Shown: one piece after another, positions 32,863 to 63,825 of the stretch
Numbering within the stretch: position 1 is the stretch's first letter
Layout: every line of letters starts with the position of its first letter
Assembly (NCBI RefSeq): GCF_001971585.1
Contig: NZ_CP019323.1
Location: 2,346,053 to 2,410,052, forward strand
Direction: 5' to 3'
Length of the DNA: 64,000 bases
Origin: Companilactobacillus allii
Lineage (GTDB): Bacteria; Bacillota; Bacilli; Lactobacillales; Lactobacillaceae
Made by a program: the position numbers and the translations under genes
Notes under the pieces: model-generated
Told to the model about the DNA's origin: nothing
What the model saw: only the letters and a program-made list of their open reading frames with translations
Databases searched by the model: none

Positions 32863-34662
32863 CTATTTATTATCTTTGTCGTCTGTATTCTGCAATTGAA
32901 TCATGTCATAGTAGTATCCACGTTGCTTCATCAACTCTTCATTATCTCCACGTTCAACAATCTTGCCTTGATTCAAAACTAATATCAAATCAGCATTTTG
33001 AATCGTTGATAATCTATGCGCTATAGCTATAGTTGTCCGATTCTCTTGAATCTTTTGCAGTCCCGTCTGAATCATTTCTTCAGTTTCAGTATCAACATTA
33101 GCAGTCGCCTCATCCAAGATAAGAATCTTAGGATCAGTAACAATAGTTCTAGCAAACGAAATCAATTGACGCTGTCCAGACGAATAACTGGCACCACGTT
33201 CAATAACCCGAGAGCGATAATTTTGTGGCAGATTATTAATGAAATCATCCGCCATAACAAATTTTGCGGCATCTCTTACTTGCTCATCTGAGATACTCTC
33301 ATCAAACATTCTAATATTGGAATTGATATCCCCATAGAACATGAATGGTTCCTGTAAAACCAAACCAAATTTTTTACGTAATTCCGCAGTTGGATATTCT
33401 CTAATATCTCTGTCATCGATTAATATTTCACCAGACTGGAATTCATAAAAACGCATTAAAACATTAATAGTCGAAGTTTTACCACTACCAGTTTGGCCAA
33501 CTAATGCAATTGTTTGACCAGGTTTTGCAACAAAGGATACGTCTTTTAGCACTGGATTAACTCCATCATATGCAAATGTAACGTGTTTGAATTCAATCTT
33601 TCCTTCAGTGATCTTCAATCCCTCAACAGGATGCTGAGTTGGAGCCATAGTTTGGTCATCCATAACTTTTAAGACACGAGAACCTGCAACAATACCATCT
33701 TGAAAGTCAGATAAATTATCCATCATTCTTGTTAGTGGATTGTAAAAATTGTCTAGATAAGTTACGAATGCATAAACCATACCAGCAGCAACGTATCCAT
33801 CCAAACCACGTATTCCAAATACACCAAGTACCATAACTGTTCCTAATGCATAAAATAGATCAATAATTGGACTTAATAATAACGAATTTGTTCTAATCAT
33901 TGCTTGACGTGTTTTGAAGTAAGCATTATTAGTAGTATCAAATTCATCATTGATTCGATGTTCCTGTCTGAATTGTTGAATCACACTAATACCCGTAATC
34001 GCTTCACTAAGTTTGGTATTCAATTCACTTAATCTCTCACGCATACGGCGATAAACCTTGGAACTATATCTTTGGTAATACCAAATAACAACACCTAAAA
34101 ACGGCATAAATATTAATAACCACAGTGAAATTTTGCGGTCAGTGAAATACATCGCCAAAAATGATGTTATAACTGCAAAGAAAGCAGTAAAAAGTGTATT
34201 GAATAGTGCCCAGAAATTGGAAAATGACATTGTATCATTGGTTAATCTGGATAATATTGAACCACCTGGTACCTGATCAAAATATCTCATACCCATCTTA
34301 TGTAATTTTGTGAACATTTCTCTACGTACACTCTCCAACATATACTCAGCACCCATAGTACTAGTATAGTTTTGGAAGAATTGCATCACGGCACGAGTCA
34401 ACATCCCAAACAAATATAGTCCAGCAAAGAACCACATAATATTGATATCAGCCTTACCAACTCTCAAATACTTATCAATGAATATTTGTAATATTTTGGG
34501 CAAATATATATTAACGAGACTAATGGTCCCGGACAAAATAATTGTAATAATAAAATACCATTTAAAGGGTTTAGCGTATGATATTAATCGCTTAATAACT
34601 GTTAATTGTTCTTTAACAGGCATACTACGAGCCCATATTGATTGGCGCTTATTTTCAGCCAT
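32863..34662 (-). CDS. ABC-type multidrug exporter half (LmrD-like)
   Basis: 599 residues: six-helix exporter domain (1-320), then the nucleotide-binding domain with Walker A GQTGSGKTS, signature YSSGQRQ, Walker B ILILDEATANVD and switch H in AHRLSTI. This fits the LmrD/YheH half of heterodimeric exporters. Its ATG overlaps the stop of the other half (TAATG). Function depends on a partner that is frameshifted in this sequence. Confidence 0.8.
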   Translation of the reverse strand: MAENKRQSIWARSMPVKEQLTVIKRLISYAKPFKWYFIITIILSGTISLVNIYLPKILQIFIDKYLRVGKADINIMWFFAGLYLFGMLTRAVMQFFQNYTSTMGAEYMLESVRREMFTKLHKMGMRYFDQVPGGSILSRLTNDTMSFSNFWALFNTLFTAFFAVITSFLAMYFTDRKISLWLLIFMPFLGVVIWYYQRYSSKVYRRMRERLSELNTKLSEAITGISVIQQFRQEHRINDEFDTTNNAYFKTRQAMIRTNSLLLSPIIDLFYALGTVMVLGVFGIRGLDGYVAAGMVYAFVTYLDNFYNPLTRMMDNLSDFQDGIVAGSRVLKVMDDQTMAPTQHPVEGLKITEGKIEFKHVTFAYDGVNPVLKDVSFVAKPGQTIALVGQTGSGKTSTINVLMRFYEFQSGEILIDDRDIREYPTAELRKKFGLVLQEPFMFYGDINSNIRMFDESISDEQVRDAAKFVMADDFINNLPQNYRSRVIERGASYSSGQRQLISFARTIVTDPKILILDEATANVDTETEEMIQTGLQKIQENRTTIAIAHRLSTIQNADLILVLNQGKIVERGDNEELMKQRGYYYDMIQLQNTDDKDNK

Positions 34663-36417
34663 TATTGTACCGCCCCCTCAACTTTTGTTTCTAGTTGTTG
34701 ACGCTCAAACATCTCTTGATACCAACCGTGTTTTTTCATCAATTGATCATGAGTACCACGTTCTACAACTCTACCTTTATCCATGACTAATATTTCATCA
34801 GCATTCATAACTGAACTTAGTCGATGTGCCGCAATTATCGTTGTTTTATCAGCTCTTTCAGCCTTCAAATTGGCTAATATTTCAGATTCCGTCTCAGCAT
34901 CTACTGCAGATAGTGCATCATCTAGAATTAATAATTCTGGATTGATCAATAACGCACGTGCAATTGCCAAACGTTGACGTTGACCACCAGAAAGTGAGAT
35001 ACCCTCCTCACCAACCTGGGTGTCATAGCCTTCAGCCATACCAGATATCTGGCCACTCAAATCACTTTTTGCAGCTACATCCTCGACGACTTGTTGACTG
35101 ACCTTTGGATCTGCAAATCTGATATTCTCCCTAATAGTATTTGAGAATAAGAAACTATCCTGTGGAACATAACCAATAGCTGGTAAATAGCTATCTAGCG
35201 CATAATGCTTAATATCTTCACCACCATAATTAATCGAGCCATCATAGTCGTCAAACTCACGCAAAATAAGCTTCATTATTGTTGATTTACCTGCACCAAC
35301 ACGGCCAACAATACCCAAAGTTTGTCCAGCGTGTAATTCAAAATGAACATCAACTAAACTAGTTCCATCATCATTGGGATAATTAAAACTTTTTATTTTA
35401 TAACTCATGTCACCACGTGGACGTTGTTCTAATCCATTCTTTTGGTCAATAATTGCCCCTTTTTGATCTAATAATTCCATCACACGATCATATGAAGCAT
35501 TACCACGTTCCATAGTATTAAATAGCATTCCTACCGCAAACATAGGCCATACCATCATACCTAGATAAGTAATAAATGAAACCAAATTACCGATCGTGAT
35601 TATATTATTAGTGACATATAAACCACCCAATACGATTGTGGCCACATATGAAATGGAAATAATGATTGTAATTGCAGGATCAAATAACGAATCCAAAATA
35701 TTAACTTTACGGTTGATATTTACAGTCCTGTCAATTTGTTGATTAAAATCTTTCATATCTGCTTTTTCTTGACCCAGTGCCTTAATAACTTTGATTCCGC
35801 TAATACTTTCTTGAGCTTTGTTATTAAGACGTGAAAAAGCTGCCTGTGAATCTCTAAATGCTACATGAATTTTTTGTCCCAAATACCAAGAAGCCGCTGC
35901 CAATAAGGGAAAGGGTACAATGGCAATCAAAGTTAATCGCCAATCAATCAGCATCATCATTGCAATCAAAGTAGTTCCACCAGTGATAATCGAATCCGCA
36001 AACTGCAGTATTCCACCACCAGCAACACGTTCGACGGCACTCAGGTCATTTGTTGCATGTGCCCATTAAGTCACCAGTACGATATTTCTGATAAAAAGTG
36101 GCATCCATTTTCATAAAATGCCAAAATAGGCGTTCTCTTAAAGTACGCTCTAATCCTGCAGCTCCGCCCCAAATAGCCGTACGCCACAAAAAACGTGTCA
36201 AATATTGACCAACAGCCGAAACCACCATAATTGATAAGTACACTGTTAAAGAGTGAACAGTTAAACTATGTTTATTAATGCCATCAATAACATCCCCAAT
36301 AATCCTTGGTGGAATAATACCAATAACAGCCGTCAAAATAAGGCCGATAATTCCAACTAGGTATAACTTCCACTCACGCTTAAAATACCAGCCGAGTTTA
36401 AAAAATATGCTCATCAT
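34662..36417 (-). pseudogene. ABC-type multidrug exporter half (LmrC-like), frameshifted
   Basis: The reading frame from ATG 36417 (GGGGGTAT upstream) ends early with YRTGDLMGTCNK; removing one G from the G-run at 36062-36064 gives YRTGDLMAHATNDLS and continues in frame to the stop at 34662. The second part has Walker A GRVGAGKST, signature LSGGQRQR and LLILDDALSAVD. Without the extra base the protein would be about 585 residues, normal for LmrC/YheI. Either a real inactivating insertion or a sequencing error. Confidence 0.8.
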
Positions 36418-51895: not shown

Positions 51896-52549
51896 CTATT
51901 CACTAAAATCGTAAGTAATCGTCCCATTTTCAATAATATACAAATGTCGATCCTCATTCTCAGGATTGAGTAATTGAACTTTAACATCATGATCCTTCGT
52001 CGGCATTTGATCCGCCATCTCCTCAGAAATTTTTTTTAATTCTTCCAAGTAGTTTGAGAGACTTTCAGTTCCTTCACCATAAACGATTACTTCTTCAACA
52101 TCTTCATAAAAATTAGAACCATAAATCGGGACCACATCAATTGTGTTAGTACTTTTTGAATAATAAACTTCATTGTTTGAACCGAGGTGTTTGGAAACTA
52201 CCGTTCTGCTCATATCAGCAATCTCTTGGTCCGATAAATGATTACGCTGATAAGTATTATAGCCATACTTACCTAATCCAGCTACGATAACTAAGACAAT
52301 CACCCCAATAATAATTGATAAACTACTATGACTAGTCTTTGTTGTGGGATGGCTGATTGGCTGATTGACAGGAGAAGCATCAGTCTGTTGTGCCGATTGT
52401 CTAGAATGACTTCCATCACCAGTCTTGCTTACCGAAGATGTAACCTGACTAAGCAGCCTTACAGATGGTGACGGTTGCTTAGCACCACAAAATGGACAAA
52501 ATGCAGAATCGGCTTCAATTTTTTTACCACACTTGATGCAGAATTTCAT
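51896..52549 (-). CDS. Zinc-ribbon membrane protein of unknown function
   Basis: 217 residues. N-terminal zinc ribbon (FCIKCGKKIEADSAFCPFCG), Ser/Gln-rich linker, one membrane helix (LSIIIGVIVLVIVAGLG, about 80-97), then an extracytoplasmic part with IDVVPIYGSNFYEDVEEVIVYG. Fourth and last member of a set of four zinc-ribbon genes; starts directly at the stop of the previous gene (0 bp apart). Confidence 0.7.
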   Translation of the reverse strand: MKFCIKCGKKIEADSAFCPFCGAKQPSPSVRLLSQVTSSVSKTGDGSHSRQSAQQTDASPVNQPISHPTTKTSHSSLSIIIGVIVLVIVAGLGKYGYNTYQRNHLSDQEIADMSRTVVSKHLGSNNEVYYSKSTNTIDVVPIYGSNFYEDVEEVIVYGEGTESLSNYLEELKKISEEMADQMPTKDHDVKVQLLNPENEDRHLYIIENGTITYDFSE

Positions 52550-53803
52550 TTAGTTATCCTCCAAAATAGTCTGATATAGCTCGGTTCCTAGACTGTTCAT
52601 AGCTGAAACTTGTTCAGATTCATTACCATCCTGTGATAAGACAACAACGACAAACGCCCCATGATTATTCTTGATAATAGCAGCATCATTTTGAACACCA
52701 TAATCACCATACTCACCGGTTTTATTATAAACAGTCGCGTCACTCGGTAAATCATGAGGTAATTTAGCGTGGTTAGCATTTTGATGCATAATGGTCAACA
52801 TGGCCCGATCAGCTTTCTGAGAAATCAGATTACCAGCGTATATCTTACTTAAAACTGTCGCCACATCAGTCACCGACGTATAGTTATCTTTGCCATCTGC
52901 CAAAGCATCTGTATCCATCATCTTTCGTTCTAGTTGTGTATCATTTAAATCTAACCGTTCAATTTCGGCATTAATTGTACTAATACCACCAATTTTGTCA
53001 ATCATGATATTAGCCGCTGTATTATCGCTTTCATCCATCATCCGTTTCAATATTTCACGATAACTTAACTCACTACCTGTGGGTAATCCTTGGATTGTAC
53101 CTGTCCCACCTACTTTATCAGTAGCGGATAATGTATAAGTATCATCCAGGTTTAGCTCTTTAGAATTGGCTTGCTGGTAAGCTGTAATCAAAATAAATAG
53201 TTTAATCAAACTCGCTGCCCGTTGTGACTGGTTATTTTGAACCACTTTAGCTTGATTGGTCGTTGAAGCTACTGCTACTGACGTTGTTCCCTTTAGCCCA
53301 GATAAGTTTGTATTAATTACCTGTTTGATTCTTGCCTTAGGAAATGGCGTCGTCGTTGGTTCAGATGATGTCTTCTTTTTAGTTGATTCGCTTGATTGCG
53401 ATACCAAGTTTTTAGCACTCGATTGTTTTCCTTTTTTAGCCACCGCCGTTGACTTGGATTGACTACGATATGTCATCACTGCATAGGTCGTGCCACCACC
53501 AATCGTGACTACGGCGATGAACAATATGATAAACCACCAATAATGATGCTTTTTAGACGGCTTTCTCGGTATTAATGGTTGAGGCGCATTGACCGTTTTA
53601 TTGCCCTGATTTGTAGCTGACGCTTGATTAGAACCCTTTGCTACTGAGTCATTTCTTGGCACTTGACTAGTAGTCTCAGCATCTACTGATTTAGTTACCT
53701 CTTGTTGTGACTTAGACGACGCTATTTTGCTAAGCGGCCGACCACAATTAAGACAAAATTGCGACCCGGCTTGGTTTTTTGTCCCACAGTATTTACAAAA
53801 CAT
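52550..53803 (-). CDS. Zinc-ribbon membrane protein with class A beta-lactamase-like serine hydrolase domain
   Basis: 417 residues. Zinc ribbon (FCKYCGTKNQAGSQFCLNCG), linker, membrane helix at about 90-112, then an extracellular penicillin-interacting domain. SxxK is S-L-I-K, S-D-N is in MDESDNTAAN, and K-T-G is in VYNKTGEYG. The class A Glu of the omega loop is not obvious, so a D-Ala-D-Ala carboxypeptidase-like or non-resistance role is more likely than antibiotic hydrolysis. Confidence 0.8.
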   Translation of the reverse strand: MFCKYCGTKNQAGSQFCLNCGRPLSKIASSKSQQEVTKSVDAETTSQVPRNDSVAKGSNQASATNQGNKTVNAPQPLIPRKPSKKHHYWWFIILFIAVVTIGGGTTYAVMTYRSQSKSTAVAKKGKQSSAKNLVSQSSESTKKKTSSEPTTTPFPKARIKQVINTNLSGLKGTTSVAVASTTNQAKVVQNNQSQRAASLIKLFILITAYQQANSKELNLDDTYTLSATDKVGGTGTIQGLPTGSELSYREILKRMMDESDNTAANIMIDKIGGISTINAEIERLDLNDTQLERKMMDTDALADGKDNYTSVTDVATVLSKIYAGNLISQKADRAMLTIMHQNANHAKLPHDLPSDATVYNKTGEYGDYGVQNDAAIIKNNHGAFVVVVLSQDGNESEQVSAMNSLGTELYQTILEDN

Positions 53804-53825
53804 TTATCTTATTTCCTCCAAAGGG

Positions 53826-54905
53826 TTAATGTGTCTGATTCTGTTGCAACGTCTTAATTTCACGTAACCCAGCATCAATTAATACTAATATAACGACCCA
53901 TGCAATAATTATCAAAATAGTGTACTTTTTCATATCAGAAATTAACGGTGCATCCCAAATAGCATGTAAGGCTATTGATAATAAGAAAAATCGGATAAAA
54001 CTGCCATTCTGAAAGGTGCTCGCTGAAAGTGGTTCTGATCCCTTGGCTAGAGCTAAAGCGGCACCGACAATGGCACACCATAGGGTATGTGTACCCAATG
54101 CAGTAACCCCCCGTAATAGTAATACAGATACACCTAATTCACCTGCATAGCCAGCTGTCTCAAACGTCGCAAAACCTGCGCCAATGGCCGCGCCAATCAA
54201 CATTCCATTTAGAATAAATTTTGTATTGATTCGATTAATATAATAAGCAATCATGATTAACTTACCGGATTCTTCAACCACTGCGACAATAGCCGCAGTA
54301 ACAATTGACATTTGATCAACTTCAACAAATTGATACAACCCCAACGTGGTTAATAGTGAGGCCACGCCTCCCACCATGAAAATTTTAGTAACTTTAAAAA
54401 TACTAATATTTTTAAACGTATTAATTTCGAAGAACATAATTAATAGTGAAAACGGAACTGCTAACGAACTAATCGAAATTAATCCAACATACATCTTTTG
54501 CCCATTTAACACATAGATGCTGCCGACAAGTAAGCTAATCGTCAAAACAAACAATATCAACACACGTGAAAATAGCCACGGCTTTACAGGTGAATCACTT
54601 ACCTGTTCCAAAGTTGGTGTTGTTTTACTAGTTCCAACAATGAATAGAGCTTCGGCTTCGGCTTCAGAATGAGATTTAAAAACTTCACTGAACATGGTAC
54701 CTAAATGAATTGGCACCATTTTATCTTCACCAGTCCAGCCGTTTATCTTTTCCGTCGCAGAATCAAACAAATTTTGCTTTGGATGAGATACTGTTTGCTG
54801 ATCAATAACATGCATGCCACTAACATTAAAACCACAATTAGTGCAAAACTTGGCTCCATCGTCCAATGATTGACCACATTTAGGACAAAATCTAACATTA
54901 TTCAT
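53826..54905 (-). CDS. Zinc-ribbon PrsW-family intramembrane protease
   Basis: 359 residues. N-terminal zinc ribbon (FCPKCGQSLDDGAKFCTNCG), then about eight membrane helices. VVEESGKLIMIAYYINR contains the E-E-x-x-K motif of PrsW. GFATFETAGYAG and ALGTHTLWCAIVGA hold the later E and H. HAIWDAP is the final conserved histidine. PrsW of Bacillus cleaves anti-sigma RsiW; here the substrate may lie in the same operon. Confidence 0.85.
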   Translation of the reverse strand: MNNVRFCPKCGQSLDDGAKFCTNCGFNVSGMHVIDQQTVSHPKQNLFDSATEKINGWTGEDKMVPIHLGTMFSEVFKSHSEAEAEALFIVGTSKTTPTLEQVSDSPVKPWLFSRVLILFVLTISLLVGSIYVLNGQKMYVGLISISSLAVPFSLLIMFFEINTFKNISIFKVTKIFMVGGVASLLTTLGLYQFVEVDQMSIVTAAIVAVVEESGKLIMIAYYINRINTKFILNGMLIGAAIGAGFATFETAGYAGELGVSVLLLRGVTALGTHTLWCAIVGAALALAKGSEPLSASTFQNGSFIRFFLLSIALHAIWDAPLISDMKKYTILIIIAWVVILVLIDAGLREIKTLQQNQTH

Positions 54906-54916
54906 ATTAAAATCCT

Positions 54917-55432
54917 CTATTCAAATCGATTGGCTTGAATATCCCCACGACGACATAATAAAACGAGCACATATATCGAGCCCACTATTGGTAGTAGTGA
55001 CCACCAATAATTGGCAAATGATAGATTAATATCATGTAAGCGGCGACTAATGGCCGTCAAAGATGGCAAAAAAAGACCTAATCCAAAAATAGTCAATAAG
55101 AACATGCCTAATTGCGCACTAAACAACAGATAAATGACTATCAACACCAAATAGCATAATCCATAGGCCAACATTGACCACCAGTAATTTGCGCGACTCA
55201 TCCGACCACTGAATTGCGTATATTTACTAAGAAATTCCTTAGAGGCACCCACTAATCCCAAATTTGATTGATAATCAGTATATGACACTGCTTGATTACG
55301 TGTAAATTGGGACTGTGCTTGATCCACGGTCGGCTTCACTGTATCGCCAATTTGGCTTAAATCTAAACCACAATTAGTACAAAAACGATCATCACTATCC
55401 AGCTTCGAACCACATCTAGGACAAAAAATCAT
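54917..55432 (-). CDS. Zinc-ribbon DUF805 membrane protein
   Basis: 171 residues. FCPRCGSKLDSDDRFCTNCG ribbon, then a DUF805 domain (FSGRMSRANYWWSMLAYGLCYLV and RRLHDINLSFANYWWSLLPIVG). Three to four membrane helices. First gene of the four; 11 bp before the PrsW gene. DUF805 proteins have no firm function. Confidence 0.85.
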   Translation of the reverse strand: MIFCPRCGSKLDSDDRFCTNCGLDLSQIGDTVKPTVDQAQSQFTRNQAVSYTDYQSNLGLVGASKEFLSKYTQFSGRMSRANYWWSMLAYGLCYLVLIVIYLLFSAQLGMFLLTIFGLGLFLPSLTAISRRLHDINLSFANYWWSLLPIVGSIYVLVLLCRRGDIQANRFE

Positions 55433-57112: not shown

Positions 57113-57790
57113 ATGTCTAGATCCAAATTTGGTTTATCGGAAAAGCTTGATTTAATTAATGAGTTTGATAAAACTGTAGTTTCTGTGAGTGCTTTCACAA
57201 AAATAAATGGTATTACAAGAAGCACTTTAAGACGGTGGCTTACACTCTTTGAACGCGACGGAGTCGACGGTCTAAGAGAGAAAACCAAAAACGATACTTA
57301 TCCTGAGGAACTGAAATTAAAAGTTGTACATGACTTCCTTGATGGTAAAGATACGATGGAGGGTCTGGTAAATAAATATGGACTCAGAAGTGTTTTTCAG
57401 GTATATGACTGGGTATTCAAGTATAATAATGGAAAATCATTGGCGAGACATAATCCGTCAAGGAAGCAGGATTCCATTATGTCGAGAAAGACAACATTTG
57501 AAGAACGTATTGAAATAGTCGAATATGTGACGAAGAATAATCATTCATATAGTGAGGCAGCTAAACATTTTTCTGTGACATATCAACAAGTTAGATCATG
57601 GGTTTTGAAATCTAAAAAAGATGGGTATGAGGCCTTGCTCGATGGTCGAGGCCATCGAAAGGCTAAAAAGGATCTAACTGATTTAGATAAAGCCAATTTA
57701 AAGATTAGACAATTGGAATCCCAACTTGAAGATCAAAAAATAATCGAGGCATTCGTAAAAAAACTGAAGGAACTTCAGCACAGGGGGTGA
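57113..57790 (+). CDS. IS3-family transposase OrfA (two HTH domains)
   Basis: 225 residues with two helix-turn-helix units (SVSAFTKINGITRSTLRRWL and HSYSEAAKHFSVTYQQVRSW) and a C-terminal leucine-zipper-like coil (LKIRQLESQLEDQKIIEAFVKKLKEL). This is the IS150-group OrfA. ATG follows GGAGG. The A-rich GTAAAAAAACTG near its end is a plausible frameshift site to OrfB. Confidence 0.9.
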   Translation: MSRSKFGLSEKLDLINEFDKTVVSVSAFTKINGITRSTLRRWLTLFERDGVDGLREKTKNDTYPEELKLKVVHDFLDGKDTMEGLVNKYGLRSVFQVYDWVFKYNNGKSLARHNPSRKQDSIMSRKTTFEERIEIVEYVTKNNHSYSEAAKHFSVTYQQVRSWVLKSKKDGYEALLDGRGHRKAKKDLTDLDKANLKIRQLESQLEDQKIIEAFVKKLKELQHRG

Positions 57791-58226
57791 ATCAAAGACA
57801 CAGACTAGCTTACCAAGCAATAAAGGAAGTTAGTCAAAATAAGCACGGTGCAATAACACTTCTACTAGGCATTGTCGGCGTTAGCCGACAGTCATATAAT
57901 AAGTTCTTCAATCGAAAGCAAACTTCAAGAGAAGCTCAAGATGAATTGTTAAAAGAGAGAATAACCTATTGGTACGAATTGAATACTAAATCTATTGGTG
58001 CCGGTACAATTCTTACTAATTTGAAAAGAAATCCACAAGTCACATGTAAAGTTACTATTAAACAGGTGAAACGTTTAATGCGTGAACTCTATATAAGATG
58101 TCAGGTAAGAATTAAGAAATGTGACCATGAAAAGCAATCAGAAATATATTTACAAGTTAAATGAGCACAATGTGATAAGAAGTATGTCTAGGCCAGGAAC
58201 ATCCTATGACAACACTCCTATGGAGC
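57787..58226 (+). pseudogene. IS3-family transposase OrfB, deleted
   Basis: Begins with a GTGA overlap with OrfA and reads RLAYQAIKEVSQNKHGAITL, SRQSYNKFFNRKQ, the standard OrfB start. The DDE catalytic core is missing: after KKCDHEKQSEIYLQVK the frame stops at 58164, and only a C-terminal scrap with E of the DDE triad (TPMEP) is left. Confidence 0.85.
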
Positions 58227-58481: not shown

Positions 58482-58799
58482 TTATATAGGCCTATTATTT
58501 ACCATACATATAATGGAAGGAATTAAATATAAAGGATTATGTATTAACCCTAAAATGAGCAAGTTAATATTCCATTTATAGGAATCTATATTTCTTATCG
58601 AAAAATATGTGATTATTTGTAAAATTATTATTACCCCAAGAAACCCAAAGGAGAAGATAACTTTGGATATATTATCTGGAATTCCAGTTACATCCTTTGG
58701 GTGCAATACCGTAACAACAGGAATACTTATTATTAAAATATTTTCTATCCAAAAAATTACCCAAGCAAATATCTGAGACAATCTATTTGTTTTAGTCAT
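58482..58799 (-). CDS. Small membrane protein, possible lanthipeptide immunity factor
   Basis: 105 residues with three membrane helices (about 10-30, 46-66, 78-98). AAGG that starts inside the stop codon of the synthetase gene lies 11 bases ahead of ATG 58799, indicating translational coupling. Last gene of the lanthipeptide operon. Producer-immunity proteins are often small polytopic proteins in this position, but no homology supports the assignment. AT-rich like its neighbours. Confidence 0.55.
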   Translation of the reverse strand: MTKTNRLSQIFAWVIFWIENILIISIPVVTVLHPKDVTGIPDNISKVIFSFGFLGVIIILQIITYFSIRNIDSYKWNINLLILGLIHNPLYLIPSIICMVNNRPI

Positions 58800-58812
58800 A
58801 ACATATATACCT

Positions 58813-59931
58813 TCAATAATTTACTTTCTTTGCTTTATTAATATTAAATAAATTCATATCACTTTTTGGTAAGGGAATCCAAGATCCCCACTTATCATTT
58901 GAAACAACATCATTTAACACTGACATTACCCCTGCAGAACCTGTACTAATATCCATCGAGCATTTATAACCTAATTTACCAGGGAATATATCCATACCAT
59001 CATAAGAAATGGCATAATTATTCAGAGATAATATATGTTTTTTTAGTGATTTATTAACCCCATATATTTTATAAATTGCATTAGACAGAACAATAAATCC
59101 TGTTACACCACTGAATAGACATGACATATATGAACAAGAAGAATAATTACTGTCTATCAATTTGCTTAACAAATCACTAAACTTCATACTAATTGAATCC
59201 AGATCATCCTTTTGCATTTCCAATAAGGTAAGGGCAATCCCCACAGACCCTGTATCTAAATACGGAATCAATCTTCTAAATCCCCTACTGTCGTCCTTAA
59301 AGGTTATTCCTTGTTCATCATTGACTAAATTGTCATTAACAATTTTTTCTAATATAATAATTGCATACTTTTTATATTTCTCATCAAGTAATATTCCGGT
59401 TTTCCAAAGAAATAATGCTGCCCCCGTCCATCCGGTTATCAATCCTATTTTCTCTTCAGACTCCTTTTCCTCCTCGAATTTTCCATTATTAATCTTATTA
59501 ACAATAATATTTGCAATTTCAATGGCTCTATTTTTAAAAACCATTATATTTGATAATGAATAAAACGATAAAAGAGACAATCCAATTCCAGATAAACCAT
59601 TATAAATAGATATGTTCATACTTTTATTATTAAAATTGCATTTTTCCAAAAGTTTATATGACAAATCTTGATTACCGTTCTCATATATTACTGAACAGAT
59701 ACCACTCATGCCACTGAATAAACCATTGTCGCATAATTCATTTTCACTAATATTTAATAAATTTTTCTCGGCACTATTTAACCATTCTTTCCATTTCTTT
59801 GAATTTTCAAAATATTTTTTGTTATTTTCCTTCAAAGACATAATTACACCCATAGAACCATTGGAAATCGAATATTTACTGATGCTAGAATTGTACTGAT
59901 CAATATCTCCAAAAATAAGATTTTCATTTTC
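58813..59931 (-). pseudogene. LanKC cyclase half (class III LanC-like), out of frame with the kinase half
   Basis: About 372 codons are in the LanC-like frame. It opens with FENENLIFGDIDQYNSS and YSISNGSMGVI, upstream of any good start; the first ATG (59853) has no ribosome site. It contains six Gly-rich toroid motifs: FSGMSG, YNGLSGIG, ITGWTG, DTGSVGIAL, FSGVTG, STGSAGV. No CHG or WCxG zinc motif is seen, as in class III enzymes. IFPGK near the end is typical of LanKC C-termini. It should follow the kinase in one polypeptide. Confidence 0.75.
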
Positions 59932-61510
59932 AAAAATTTAAATTCTTAATTAACCCTAAATCTAATCCTACAATATTATTCTCGACATTTTTCATACTGT
60001 ATTTATACTTAGGAACATCTAACTCTTTATTATAAAAATTAGGTGACGGATAAATATTGATATACTTACTAATTTCATTGCTTACATAGGTGAGTGTTTT
60101 GATTGCCGATTTTCCAAATTTATCTTCAATATTTTCATTTTGCCTCATTATGAAATTTTTACTGAAGTTCATCCCTGATTCTATCGGTAAAAATAAATGT
60201 CTAGAAATTTTATAAACAGCATACCAATCAGCAGCACCAAAAGTTTTTGAATGTTGCGAAACAAAATCTTGAGTGACTAGTCCGGGTTCAAATTTATTAT
60301 TTATTCTCGTAGCACATTCTAAATCAATAAGCTTTAAAGAAATACAATCGTGATTGTTTATGACCATAATATTGGATGGCTGCAAATCTCCTATGGCAAT
60401 ACCATAATTATGAACTTTTTTTACAATTGACATTAATGTAATTGAAATTCTTGTAGCCTTTTTCAAATAATCTTTAGCGGAAATATCATTTGAAAAAGGA
60501 TACTCTCTTGCAATAAATTCACTAAGACTTTCACCATCTACTATGTCTTCAACTAAATAATTATGATTCCAAATTTCTTTATAATTGATGGGATTTACAA
60601 TCTCATCAACATACCTAAGTTTAACCAGAGTATTATACTCATGCTTAATTCTTGCAAATCCATCATTATTATTCCTATCTAATCCGACATTTGGCCGTCC
60701 TTCTTTTAAAATAACCCTTTTACTATTGTACTTTGCACTATATACTCCTCCAGCATTACTAAAATGAATGGCCTCATCTATTTTAAATGATTTGAGATCT
60801 GAAAAAACCTTTTCGTTTGGAAAAACATTGTTTTCTAAAATAAATTTAGGTTCTTTTATAAAATTAGGTAGTGAATAATATGGTGCTCTTACATCTTCTA
60901 TACATTTTCCTCTTGGATCTTTTATAATATACGTTATATTTCCATCAATATTATATGTCATTTTTTTAAATGCACCATAACGAAAGAAAACATTGCTTTG
61001 TTTCCATTGTTGATCGTTTAATATATATGGTCCATTCCTATAGGCAGACATTATGTTCAGTAATGGATCTAAAAGACTACAAAATTGTTTCTCAGTTGAC
61101 GGATATACAGTAATAAATTTTCCAGATTCTTCTCTATGTCCATATTTTGAATAAGTGATTTTAAGAGTATAAGAATCCGGTACAAATTTGAATGATATCT
61201 TTTTATCTATTAAAAATGAAGATATATCTTGTAATACTTCAGCAGCATCATTAATATTAGCCGATATGTGAATTTTCCATCCTTGATTAGGCAGCAAATT
61301 ATTATTAAAAATAATATATTTCCAATTATTATCTCTAGTTACACTCCATTTTGATTTATCTAGTTCCTTCGTAGAAAAAATAGTACCACTTTGATTTAAT
61401 ATTTTCTCATATGAGTAAAACGGTAAATTATTATTATTCACAAATTTTAGATACTCGGTTCCATCTAATGACAATATAATGTCCTCCCATATCCTATTTA
61501 ATTGATCCAA
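59930..61510 (-). CDS. Class III lanthipeptide synthetase LanKC, lyase and kinase domains
   Basis: 526 residues. Residues 1-205 are the lyase-type domain (GWKIHISANINDAAEVL, SGKFITVYPSTEKQF, GPYILNDQQW, RYGAF). Residues 240-500 are the Ser/Thr kinase-like domain, with VILKEGRP (K269), IGDLQPSNIMV (D375) and LIDLECA (D396). It should phosphorylate Ser in the precursor and eliminate phosphate to dehydroalanine. The frame ends 5 bp after entering the cyclase linker, at a T5 run. It overlaps the ABC gene by 17 bp. Confidence 0.85.
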   Translation of the reverse strand: MDQLNRIWEDIILSLDGTEYLKFVNNNNLPFYSYEKILNQSGTIFSTKELDKSKWSVTRDNNWKYIIFNNNLLPNQGWKIHISANINDAAEVLQDISSFLIDKKISFKFVPDSYTLKITYSKYGHREESGKFITVYPSTEKQFCSLLDPLLNIMSAYRNGPYILNDQQWKQSNVFFRYGAFKKMTYNIDGNITYIIKDPRGKCIEDVRAPYYSLPNFIKEPKFILENNVFPNEKVFSDLKSFKIDEAIHFSNAGGVYSAKYNSKRVILKEGRPNVGLDRNNNDGFARIKHEYNTLVKLRYVDEIVNPINYKEIWNHNYLVEDIVDGESLSEFIAREYPFSNDISAKDYLKKATRISITLMSIVKKVHNYGIAIGDLQPSNIMVINNHDCISLKLIDLECATRINNKFEPGLVTQDFVSQHSKTFGAADWYAVYKISRHLFLPIESGMNFSKNFIMRQNENIEDKFGKSAIKTLTYVSNEISKYINIYPSPNFYNKELDVPKYKYSMKNVENNIVGLDLGLIKNLNF

Positions 61511-63221
61511 ATTGCTTTTTTACAAATTCCTTATATTCAGGTAATCTTGAAAGAAGATCTGAATGTTTACCATGATCGAGTATTGTATGCTTATCAACAA
61601 AGTAAATTTCATCTGCATCCATTACTGTAGACAACCTGTGTGCAACCGCAACTATCATCTTTCCACTCATTACTTTCCTCAATGCTTCTGAAACAAGTGA
61701 CTCGGTACTCGGGTCTAAACTTGATGTTGCTTCATCTAGTATTAAAACTTTTGGATTTTTTATATAAGCTCTAGCTATCTGTAATCGCTGTCTTTGACCT
61801 CCGGAAAATTGAACACCTTGTTCTCCAACTAACGTTTCGATACCATTAGGTAAATCTTTGATATCGTCCCATAAATTACTAGCTTTTATTGCATCATCTA
61901 ATTCTCTATTATTAGGTATATAATTCAAGCCAAATATAAGATTATCTTTGATTGTTCCCGTCAATACGGTGTTTTCCTGAGAAACTACTCCAAAAAGTTT
62001 TCTCCAATCATAAATCAAAATATCTTCGGAAGAAATATCTTCGTTTAATATTATTTTCCCGCCAATATTTATTGTATATAATCTTGTTAATAAATTTATA
62101 ATAGTTGTTTTACCACTTCCTGAAGGTCCAACTATTGCTATTTTTTTATTTCTCTCAAATTTAATATTTACATTTTTTAATATTAAATCATTTTCATATG
62201 AAAATGATACATTCTCAAATCTGATACTATTAACTAAATAATTGGAGGGTAATTTCATATTGAAAGGTATATCATTCTCAGTGGACATTTGGATAATCTC
62301 ACTAACTTTACTTAAAGATCCTTTACATTCTTTAAAGTTAGTATAAAAAGAAGATACTGTATTTATAGGTTGAATAATTTGTACTAAATACATAACAATC
62401 GTTACCAAACTAGACATTGACAATGTTCCATTATTAACTCTTAGGCCACCATATAAAATAATTGATAATATTACACCAAATGAAATTACCGATTGAAGCG
62501 GTGCAACAACTGAATTAATTAAATCTCCACGAAGTGAAATTTTATACATATTATTTATATAACCATTTATATTTTTTACAACAATTGATTCTGCATTATT
62601 TAATTTAACTGTTCTAATATTTCTTAAGAATTCTGTTACAACACCTGACAACTTACTTAATTCTGATTGAAGTATTATTATCAGTTTTTCATTTATATTT
62701 GCTACCGGAATAGTTAAAAGAGCGTATATTGGAAAACTAATGCAAATAACAAAGGTTAGTTTCCAATCCGTATATACTAGTATACTGAGTGCCCCAAATA
62801 ATGTAATTATGCCCGATAAATTTTGTGGGATTATTATAGTAATAAATTCTTTTATTATTGAAACATCATTTATAACTCTACTAGATAATTGCCCACTAAT
62901 TGAATTATCGAAATACGATGTCGGTAAATATAATAAATGTGTATTCACTTTTTCACGAATTTCTTTTATTGTTTTATCCCCTTCTCGACTAATTATGTAT
63001 CCACCAATAGAGGTTAGAATGGTTGTTAATAATAGTAATATGATAATCTTTAATATATATATCGAATTATTGGTTCCAGAAATCAATATTTCTTTGAGAC
63101 TAATTGCTTTTCCAACAAGAATGGGTACATAAAGATTTAATGAGCTACCTATCATGGTTAATATCAACCCAATAAGGAACTTAAAATTAATATTAAAAAC
63201 TCTTATCTCATTTTTATTCAT
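61494..63221 (-). CDS. ABC exporter of the lanthipeptide locus (LanT-like)
   Basis: 575 residues from ATG 63221 (GGGAGATA upstream). Six-helix exporter domain (1-320) then Walker A GPSGSGKTT, signature FSGGQRQR, Walker B VLILDEATSSLD and AHRLSTV. There is no N-terminal C39 peptidase domain, so leader removal needs another protease. Likely exports the modified peptide. The start follows a 14-bp hairpin after the precursor gene. Its end overlaps lanKC by 17 bp. Confidence 0.85.
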   Translation of the reverse strand: MNKNEIRVFNINFKFLIGLILTMIGSSLNLYVPILVGKAISLKEILISGTNNSIYILKIIILLLLTTILTSIGGYIISREGDKTIKEIREKVNTHLLYLPTSYFDNSISGQLSSRVINDVSIIKEFITIIIPQNLSGIITLFGALSILVYTDWKLTFVICISFPIYALLTIPVANINEKLIIILQSELSKLSGVVTEFLRNIRTVKLNNAESIVVKNINGYINNMYKISLRGDLINSVVAPLQSVISFGVILSIILYGGLRVNNGTLSMSSLVTIVMYLVQIIQPINTVSSFYTNFKECKGSLSKVSEIIQMSTENDIPFNMKLPSNYLVNSIRFENVSFSYENDLILKNVNIKFERNKKIAIVGPSGSGKTTIINLLTRLYTINIGGKIILNEDISSEDILIYDWRKLFGVVSQENTVLTGTIKDNLIFGLNYIPNNRELDDAIKASNLWDDIKDLPNGIETLVGEQGVQFSGGQRQRLQIARAYIKNPKVLILDEATSSLDPSTESLVSEALRKVMSGKMIVAVAHRLSTVMDADEIYFVDKHTILDHGKHSDLLSRLPEYKEFVKKQFGSIK

Positions 63222-63237
63222 AGATATCTCCCACAAA

Positions 63238-63275
63238 TAGACAGACAGATGTTGAAATCAGCATCTGTCTGTCTA
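63238..63275 (-). terminator. Hairpin between precursor gene and exporter
   Basis: TAGACAGACAGATG (63238-63251) and exact complement (63262-63275) with a 10-base loop, 15 bp after the precursor stop. The following T-tract is short (ATTTG), so read-through is likely; such partial terminators raise precursor over enzyme levels, or stabilise the short mRNA. Confidence 0.7.
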
Positions 63276-63289
63276 TTGCCTATTAAGAT

Positions 63290-63418
63290 TTAACAACCAA
63301 AACTATAAAAACTACGGCCGGTACACATAAAACTTATATTGCTTCTAGATGCTTTTTTAGCAGCAATTGTAAGTGGTTGTTGTGTATTTTGCAAACTAAC
63401 TATTGGATTAGTATTCAT
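63290..63418 (-). CDS. Class III lanthipeptide precursor LanA (42 residues)
   Basis: Begins MNTNPIVSLQNT and ends SFYSFGC. AGGAGG lies nine bases before ATG 63418. The leader has I-V-S-L-Q (residues 6-10), matching the hydrophobic-x-x-LQ recognition motif of class III leaders. The core has two perfect S-x-x-S-x-x-C units: S26-S29-C32 and S36-S39-C42, each able to form a labionin or lanthionine ring, the second at the C-terminus. It is first in the operon before the exporter and synthetase. Confidence 0.85.
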   Translation of the reverse strand: MNTNPIVSLQNTQQPLTIAAKKASRSNISFMCTGRSFYSFGC

Positions 63419-63589: not shown

Positions 63590-63825
63590 GAGCACTTCAG
63601 ATGGCAGTATCAGCACAAGAATTATCAAGATGCAATGAGGGAACTTAGAATAACTCCAAGTATGTCTCGAAAAGGCAATTGTCATGGTAACACACCTATG
63701 GAAAGTTTCTTTAACCTGTTAAATCTAGAATATTTAAATCGTATGAAGATTAATAATTTAGAGGAATTGAAATAAATTGTTGCTAAATACATTACTTGGT
63801 ATAATACCAAACGAATTTCAATGAA
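63590..63825 (+). pseudogene. IS3-family OrfB C-terminal remnant
   Basis: The frame reads RWQYQHKNYQDAMRELRITP, SMSRKGNCHGNTPMESFFNL, a stop inside EELK, then YITWYNTKRISMK. This is the C-terminal DDE region of an IS150-group transposase; the start of orfB is missing. It is not a continuation of the left element, since both keep the SMSR...TPME segment with different sequence. Confidence 0.85.

Follow-up and report, generated by a model that had tools for sequence, protein, structure and literature searches.

A divergent class III lanthipeptide locus in Companilactobacillus allii, probably inactive as sequenced

The subject of this article is a lanthipeptide (lan) locus at positions 58482-63418 of a 64,000-nucleotide (nt) stretch of DNA from Companilactobacillus allii; "the window" refers to that whole stretch. 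Five open reading frames (ORFs) make up the locus; all lie on one strand, as the initial annotation had stated, and this is the minus strand. In transcription order these are a precursor gene of 42 codons, an ABC exporter gene, a lyase-kinase ORF of 526 codons, a LanC-like cyclase ORF of 346 codons, and an ORF of 105 codons for a small membrane protein. We take the cluster to be, probably, a divergent member of the well-known class III kind that is inactive as sequenced. The lyase-kinase and cyclase parts stand in different frames, and we put at about 0.6 the probability that this frame change is a real mutation, one that would leave hardly any cyclase, if any, and as little modified peptide.

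The synthetase and its two reading frames

The lyase-kinase half (59930..61510, minus strand) is matched by PF25816, the RamC_N lyase domain (9.3e-54, 182.2 bits), and by the kinase family PF00069 (1.4e-10, 41.5 bits), both above cut-off, and the LanC-like half (58813..59853, minus strand) by PF05147 (5e-13, 48.8 bits, cut-off 23.2). The lyase, kinase, and LanC-like parts that had been assigned to this synthetase are therefore all present, but not in the single ORF that had been assumed for them. A profile search had been proposed as a check on the kinase and LanC-like parts, and PF00069, PF05147, and the model NF038151 supplied the expected matches. NF038151 (833 positions) is the top model for both enzyme ORFs, covering model positions 10-472 in the first (458.8 bits) and 530-833 in the second (168.1 bits); each half alone falls under its cut-off of 575 bits.

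The enzyme parts appear to belong to class III, an assignment supported by the profiles, the cyclase residues, and the nearest structures. The RamC-type lyase is joined to a Ser/Thr kinase, and the LanC-like domain has no zinc ligands: their places are occupied by D, F, and S, compared with S, F, and D in ThurKC of Bacillus thuringiensis and C, C, and H in one relative (L039). The nearest solved structure for the lyase-kinase half is ThurKC (8SAP, 2.1e-89), with 9WJ0 matched too; for the LanC half it is 9WJ0 (3.3e-26, deposited as protein kinase domain-containing protein), followed by 8SAP. Eight lyase residues (K79, H81, K108, K122, K131, D166, R177, and R208) are invariant in seven aligned sequences and, by an alignment read by eye, equal K65, H67, K94, K108, K117, D152, R163, and R191 of ThurKC; kinase residues K269, D375, N380, and D396 are invariant as well in the seven. 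Because all eight named lyase residues are kept, the enzyme parts look sound. We find it scarcely conceivable that the locus belongs to class IV or class V, or that it holds an unrelated kinase pair. The class IV model NF038150 does match the lyase-kinase ORF at 245.9 bits, but NF038151 scores far higher there and leads by 168.1 to 29.3 bits on the LanC ORF, where class II models are also lower; the best structures, too, include class III enzymes. Class IV (LanL) was accordingly tried and rejected, as NF038150 ranks below NF038151 and the zinc-binding Cys/Cys/His set is not in the cyclase. The class III assignment of the initial annotation is thus upheld by the ranking of NF038151, by the missing zinc ligands, and by the absence of a C39 peptidase from the exporter.

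What departs from the class is the layout, since lyase, kinase, and cyclase are not in one LanKC polypeptide but in two frames that do not overlap. The lyase-kinase ORF ends in TTT TGA (TGA at 59930-59932), and the LanC ATG at 59853 follows 76 nt past that stop. Inspection of the start context revealed no ribosome site upstream of this ATG; such sites are present at lanA, at the exporter ATG 63221, and at the lyase-kinase TTG 61474 (GGGAGG), which is the more likely start of that ORF and near which aligned relatives start. The gene overlaps that had been claimed are hence not borne out: the sole one, between exporter and lyase-kinase, hangs on a mechanically assigned TTG at 61510, and lyase-kinase and LanC stand 76 nt apart.

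The sequence between the two ORFs (59854..59931, minus strand) matches nine fused relatives as an interdomain linker and is coding in the LanC frame, out of frame with the lyase-kinase ORF. Translated that way, the 26 codons leading up to the LanC ATG give ENENLIFGDIDQYNSSISKYSISNGS, a conserved interdomain linker with 8-15 identities over 22-26 residues in the nine (15/24 in L027 and 14/26 in L045). Shuffled sequences never did as well for seven of these relatives (0/200), and did so in 11/200 (L055) and 5/200 (L057) cases for the most distantly related two. The linker scores 33-79 in the LanC frame versus 19-33 in the two other frames, and all nine relatives read across it without a stop. 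It is likely, on this sequence comparison, that the two ORFs are one fused LanKC gene with a lost frame.

Close relatives have kept the frame open. A scan of genome contigs with a single protein confirmed no loci; repeated with alignment A1, it returned 563 confirmed loci. Of the best 80 of these 563, three are at an edge and the other 77 all hold at least 779 open codons, a figure that measures frame length and leaves each LanC part unchecked. Among 19 further loci, of which four belong to genomes already represented in the best 80, two are at an edge and 13 of the other 17 hold at least 835 open codons; L035, L038, L040, and L041 are the exceptions.

Weighing the frame change

As the lyase-kinase stops at 526 codons and the cyclase is without a start signal, little or no cyclase would be made and little or no peptide modified. 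A former LanKC gene that changes frame midway would thus probably leave the pathway silent as sequenced. The product carrying labionin or lanthionine that the initial annotation predicted does not follow for the given sequence, in which the synthetase is broken in two frames. Any loss would be recent, because both LanKC halves are otherwise without stops. Several points weigh against loss by mutation. The frame change sits at a short T run, prone to both sequencing error and slippage; the halves are otherwise stop-free; and a second window gene, an ABC exporter at 34662-36417, is also cut in two ORFs. Provided LanC is made, the enzyme could also work despite the split, because the halves of ThurKC are active when mixed (see below). 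Finally, 13 of the 28 rows of a family search, the window's own aside, have fewer than 780 open codons, so short or split synthetases are not rare in distant family members. Two of these 13 (G308 and G109, 41-50% identity) are contig ends, and the rest, at most 36% identical, include natural splits and an apparent insertion sequence (IS) insertion.

We think it unlikely, though far from negligible, that an error of sequencing or assembly produced the frame change and that the strain has an ordinary, intact class III cluster. The T run, the second cut gene, and the open, well-conserved halves would all suit such an error; however, the T run is short, and in a comparison of ORFs from G213, the genome of a near relative in the genus, to the window plus its right flank, all 38 orthologue rows were unbroken, each in one frame (the comparison covered matches of at least 55% identity and ORFs of at least 100 codons, and some rows are antisense ORFs). 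The assembly is therefore not full of frame errors. Use of the halves in their present form is appreciably more doubtful, whether through a forward slip at UUU-UGA that would yield a minority of full-length protein or through a separate LanC acting in trans. The last sense codon and stop form a shift-prone pair, TTT TGA, comparable to the prfB shift site; the ThurKC halves act in trans; and a natural lineage in the Lactobacillus group has separate lyase-kinase and LanC ORFs. Yet no element resembling a Shine-Dalgarno sequence was seen by eye just ahead of the site, the sequence 3' of it has no stable structure (z 0.37, with 125/200 shuffles as stable), and the linker is stop-free in the nine relatives. 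The LanC ATG also has no ribosome site, whereas in the natural split of L038 AAGGAA precedes a LanC start that overlaps the lyase-kinase stop. A separate LanC with a start of its own was thus not found, and two candidates were dropped: a designed split gene, because the ribosome site is absent before the LanC ATG and the linker is still coding, and a structured recoding signal at TTT TGA, given its z of 0.37. We give only a slim chance to two products by design, in which a forward frameshift at TTT TGA or phase variation of the T run would set the ratio of cyclase to lyase-kinase and the two would act in trans. Should the halves be used in their present form, the locus would be nature's counterpart of the split ThurKC experiment, through which one could test whether dehydration needs the cyclase domain.

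Among the matches listed by a literature search, one paper, PMC10027976 on the roseocin family, reportedly mentions both LanKC and a frameshift; this is not proof of absence elsewhere.

Precursor, exporter, and surroundings

The precursor gene (lanA-like, 63290..63418, minus strand) encodes 42 amino acids and has AGGAGG 8 nt 5' of its ATG, in agreement with the short Ser/Cys-rich precursor and strong ribosome site described initially. Its leader begins MNTNPIVSLQ..., and its core holds S26-x2-S29-x2-C32 and S36-x2-S39-x2-C42. The class III lanthipeptide model NF038159 matches it weakly (16.2 bits, cut-off 30). No other ORF in the window has the double SxxSxxC motif, yet 12 of 100 copies randomized by an order-1 Markov model contain such an ORF, and the motif taken alone is feeble evidence for a precursor. 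The call is convincing because of the position, the ribosome site, the leader, and the adjoining class III genes. Both the Ser/Cys core and the leader motif are of the class III kind: NPIVSLQ is similar to its counterparts in Jeotgalibaca (NPVLDLQ), Terribacillus (NPVLELQ), and Lactobacillus helsingborgensis (NPVLALQ), an NP...LQ leader is common to the precursor and L044, L045, and L048, and SNISFMC resembles SSISIFC of Terribacillus.

A long hairpin found by self-match lies between precursor and exporter (63236..63277, minus strand; -26.5 kcal/mol, z -6.35, 0/200 shuffles as stable) and is probably an attenuator or an mRNA-stabilizing stem. It overlaps the mechanical TTG start of the exporter, the probable start of which is ATG 63221 with GGGAG upstream. 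When a direct-repeat operator was sought 5' of lanA, only an 8-nt pair turned up; the promoter scan found 43 against 42.1 expected, and terminators numbered 0 against 2.0 expected. The exporter (61494..63236, minus strand) has transmembrane and ATPase domains (PF00664 and PF00005) and is about 46% identical to those of L034, L044, and L048. The initial annotation had it without a peptidase domain, and a Pfam search indeed matched no peptidase family, C39 included.

Going by how the class III family works, we infer that Ser residues in the LanA core would gain phosphate from the kinase and lose it again through the lyase, leaving dehydroalanine. The zinc-free LanC domain would then add Cys to the dehydroalanines, forming labionin or lanthionine rings across the two SxxSxxC motifs. 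Release of the peptide would fall to the exporter, which has no peptidase, and the leader would be cut off by a protease encoded outside the cluster.

The small protein (58482..58799, minus strand; 105 amino acids) is preceded only by GAAGG, at a greater distance. It has no Pfam or NCBIfam match, and a plasmid search for its relatives returned none; within the family, relatives occur in 24 of 397 genomes, its own included. Five of their neighborhoods were fetched, two from G213, and in four (L163, L164, L165, and L166) the relative adjoins a cassette of histidine kinase and LytTR regulator (HK-LytTR). In L163 a 64% identical relative follows the kinase and regulator, an order shared by L164-L166; some 5 kb from the relative in L165 there is also a class IIc bacteriocin-like peptide (22.5 bits, below the cut-off of 27.1). 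Against this link, L167 has two relatives without HK-LytTR. A LytTR regulator with no adjoining kinase gene also lies to the right of the lan genes, about 0.9 kb beyond the edge of the window (L042:8940-9722, minus strand); it is 52.6% identical to that of L163, and in L031 and L032 the lan clusters come with a similar regulator and kinase. By similarity and by the LytTR gene nearby, the protein is of the HK-LytTR-associated type, and because its kin stand beside HK-LytTR in four of five neighborhoods it is probably a regulator or immunity piece, putatively an immunity protein. In our reading, the small protein and regulator were left over from an HK-LytTR cassette, or recruited from one, and are not core class III parts. 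The small membrane protein listed with the gene set is therefore present, and hydrophobic by eye, but better placed in a regulator/immunity cassette than in class III.

The block appears to have been horizontally acquired, as had been suggested. This is supported by an empty site in G213, where the flanks (C20: 15054-17994 and 18787-19691) are about 0.8 kb apart versus about 9.0 kb here, and by the window LanC being found in one of 36 genus genomes, its own, and not in the other 35. The locus is also more AT-rich than its left side, as noted at the outset (GC 28.2% versus 34.5%). Bracketing by insertion sequences stands on the left, where an IS3-type remnant (57113..58164, plus strand) comprises a helix-turn-helix (HTH) orf and a truncated orfB found by profile matches, the orfB part by HTH_21 only (21.7 bits, below the cut-off of 28.1); partial copies of this element occur elsewhere in the genome. 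On the right, an rve_3 transposase remnant (63635..63775, plus strand) is present but below cut-off (E 3.1e-4, 20.9 bits, cut-off 26.5). A group II intron maturase fragment is also present around the block.

Elsewhere in the window, the cut gene at 34662-36417 (minus strand) encodes an exporter subunit adjoining an intact partner (32863-34662). Its two ORFs, 123 and 435 codons long, match successive parts of a single ABC_membrane domain (positions 2-101, then 133-274). At 51896-55432 (minus strand), four adjacent genes encode proteins that start with a zinc-ribbon-like Cys pattern and then diverge; we take one to be serine beta-lactamase-like, one to be a PrsW-like membrane protease, and one to be a DUF805 protein.

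Comparison with known systems

Literature searches found no paper pairing class III lanthipeptide with Lactobacillaceae, which is not proof of absence; matches do exist for class III lanthipeptide with labionin and Lactobacillus, and for lanthipeptide with Companilactobacillus. A 2020 survey gives 2377 class III clusters across all phyla, with LanKCs and LanLs mostly in Actinobacteria and Firmicutes. Among its Firmicutes precursor families, III 3 has core Ser-x2-Ser-x3-Cys and III 6 has an ABC-type transporter and no conserved protease. Paenithopeptins are described as carrying labionin. The literature drawn on includes PMC7268733, PMC8960859, and PMC10134562. By such descriptions the cluster may be likened to III 3, III 6, and the paenithopeptins/bacinapeptins, although III 3 clusters are described as carrying proteases.

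Relatives of the lyase-kinase occur in 82 plasmid records, and the best identity found is 45% across the whole lyase-kinase part, or 49-50% over a contig-end fragment. The order of precursor, exporter, and LanKC is that of a Jeotgalibaca dankookensis plasmid (L044), which next has a DUF3021 protein instead of the small membrane protein of the window. With this locus and that of Terribacillus halophilus (L048), the window shares the NPVL(D/E)LQ type of leader and an S-x-I/F-S-I-F-C core end, and its lyase-kinase is 41.5% and 45% identical to theirs, respectively. Unlike the window, both have an intact LanKC of 893 open codons and a poly-Ser core. A further relative (L034, in G109) is cut by its contig end, with 49% identity over 182 lyase residues and 46% in the exporter.

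Natural splits in the Lactobacillus group (L038/L135, L136, and L137/L041) have lyase-kinase and LanC as separate ORFs, as the window does. Their lyase-kinase open frames are 505-509 codons, in 3 of 75 Lactobacillus-group genomes, and they are just 30-32% identical to the window protein. Since this split is common to versions 48% identical, it is of long standing rather than the product of a recent change of frame. In L038 the LanC start overlaps the end of the lyase-kinase ORF and has a ribosome site, which the window LanC is without. The separate ORFs lie at 6464-9077 in L038 and at 5718-8299 in L041, where LanC is itself two ORFs. In L040 (6477-10221, in G208), an IS3-type transposase ORF apparently lies, by eye, between the kinase and LanC-like parts, and on a Melissococcus plutonius plasmid (L134) a lanKC-like match spans two hypothetical proteins, possibly a broken class III synthetase.

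If the locus is ordinary, it adds a divergent member to the class III lanthipeptides known from lactic acid bacteria, a little-characterized set, and would be a class III cluster probably decaying after transfer. The closest enzymological reference is ThurKC (8SAM, 8SAO, and 8SAP), with which the window shares the RamC-type lyase with its eight residues kept, a kinase with Asp-x-Glu replacing Asp-Phe-Gly, and the zinc-free LanC. Residue D771 of ThurKC, needed there for labionin, is Ser (LFSG) in the window and in L031, L032, and L044. According to PMC10604976, the ThurKC kinase alone and the lyase-kinase alone fail to modify the substrate, but it is modified when the lyase-kinase is combined with the cyclase as a second polypeptide. 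ThurKC itself is one polypeptide, whereas the cyclase of the window lies in another frame.

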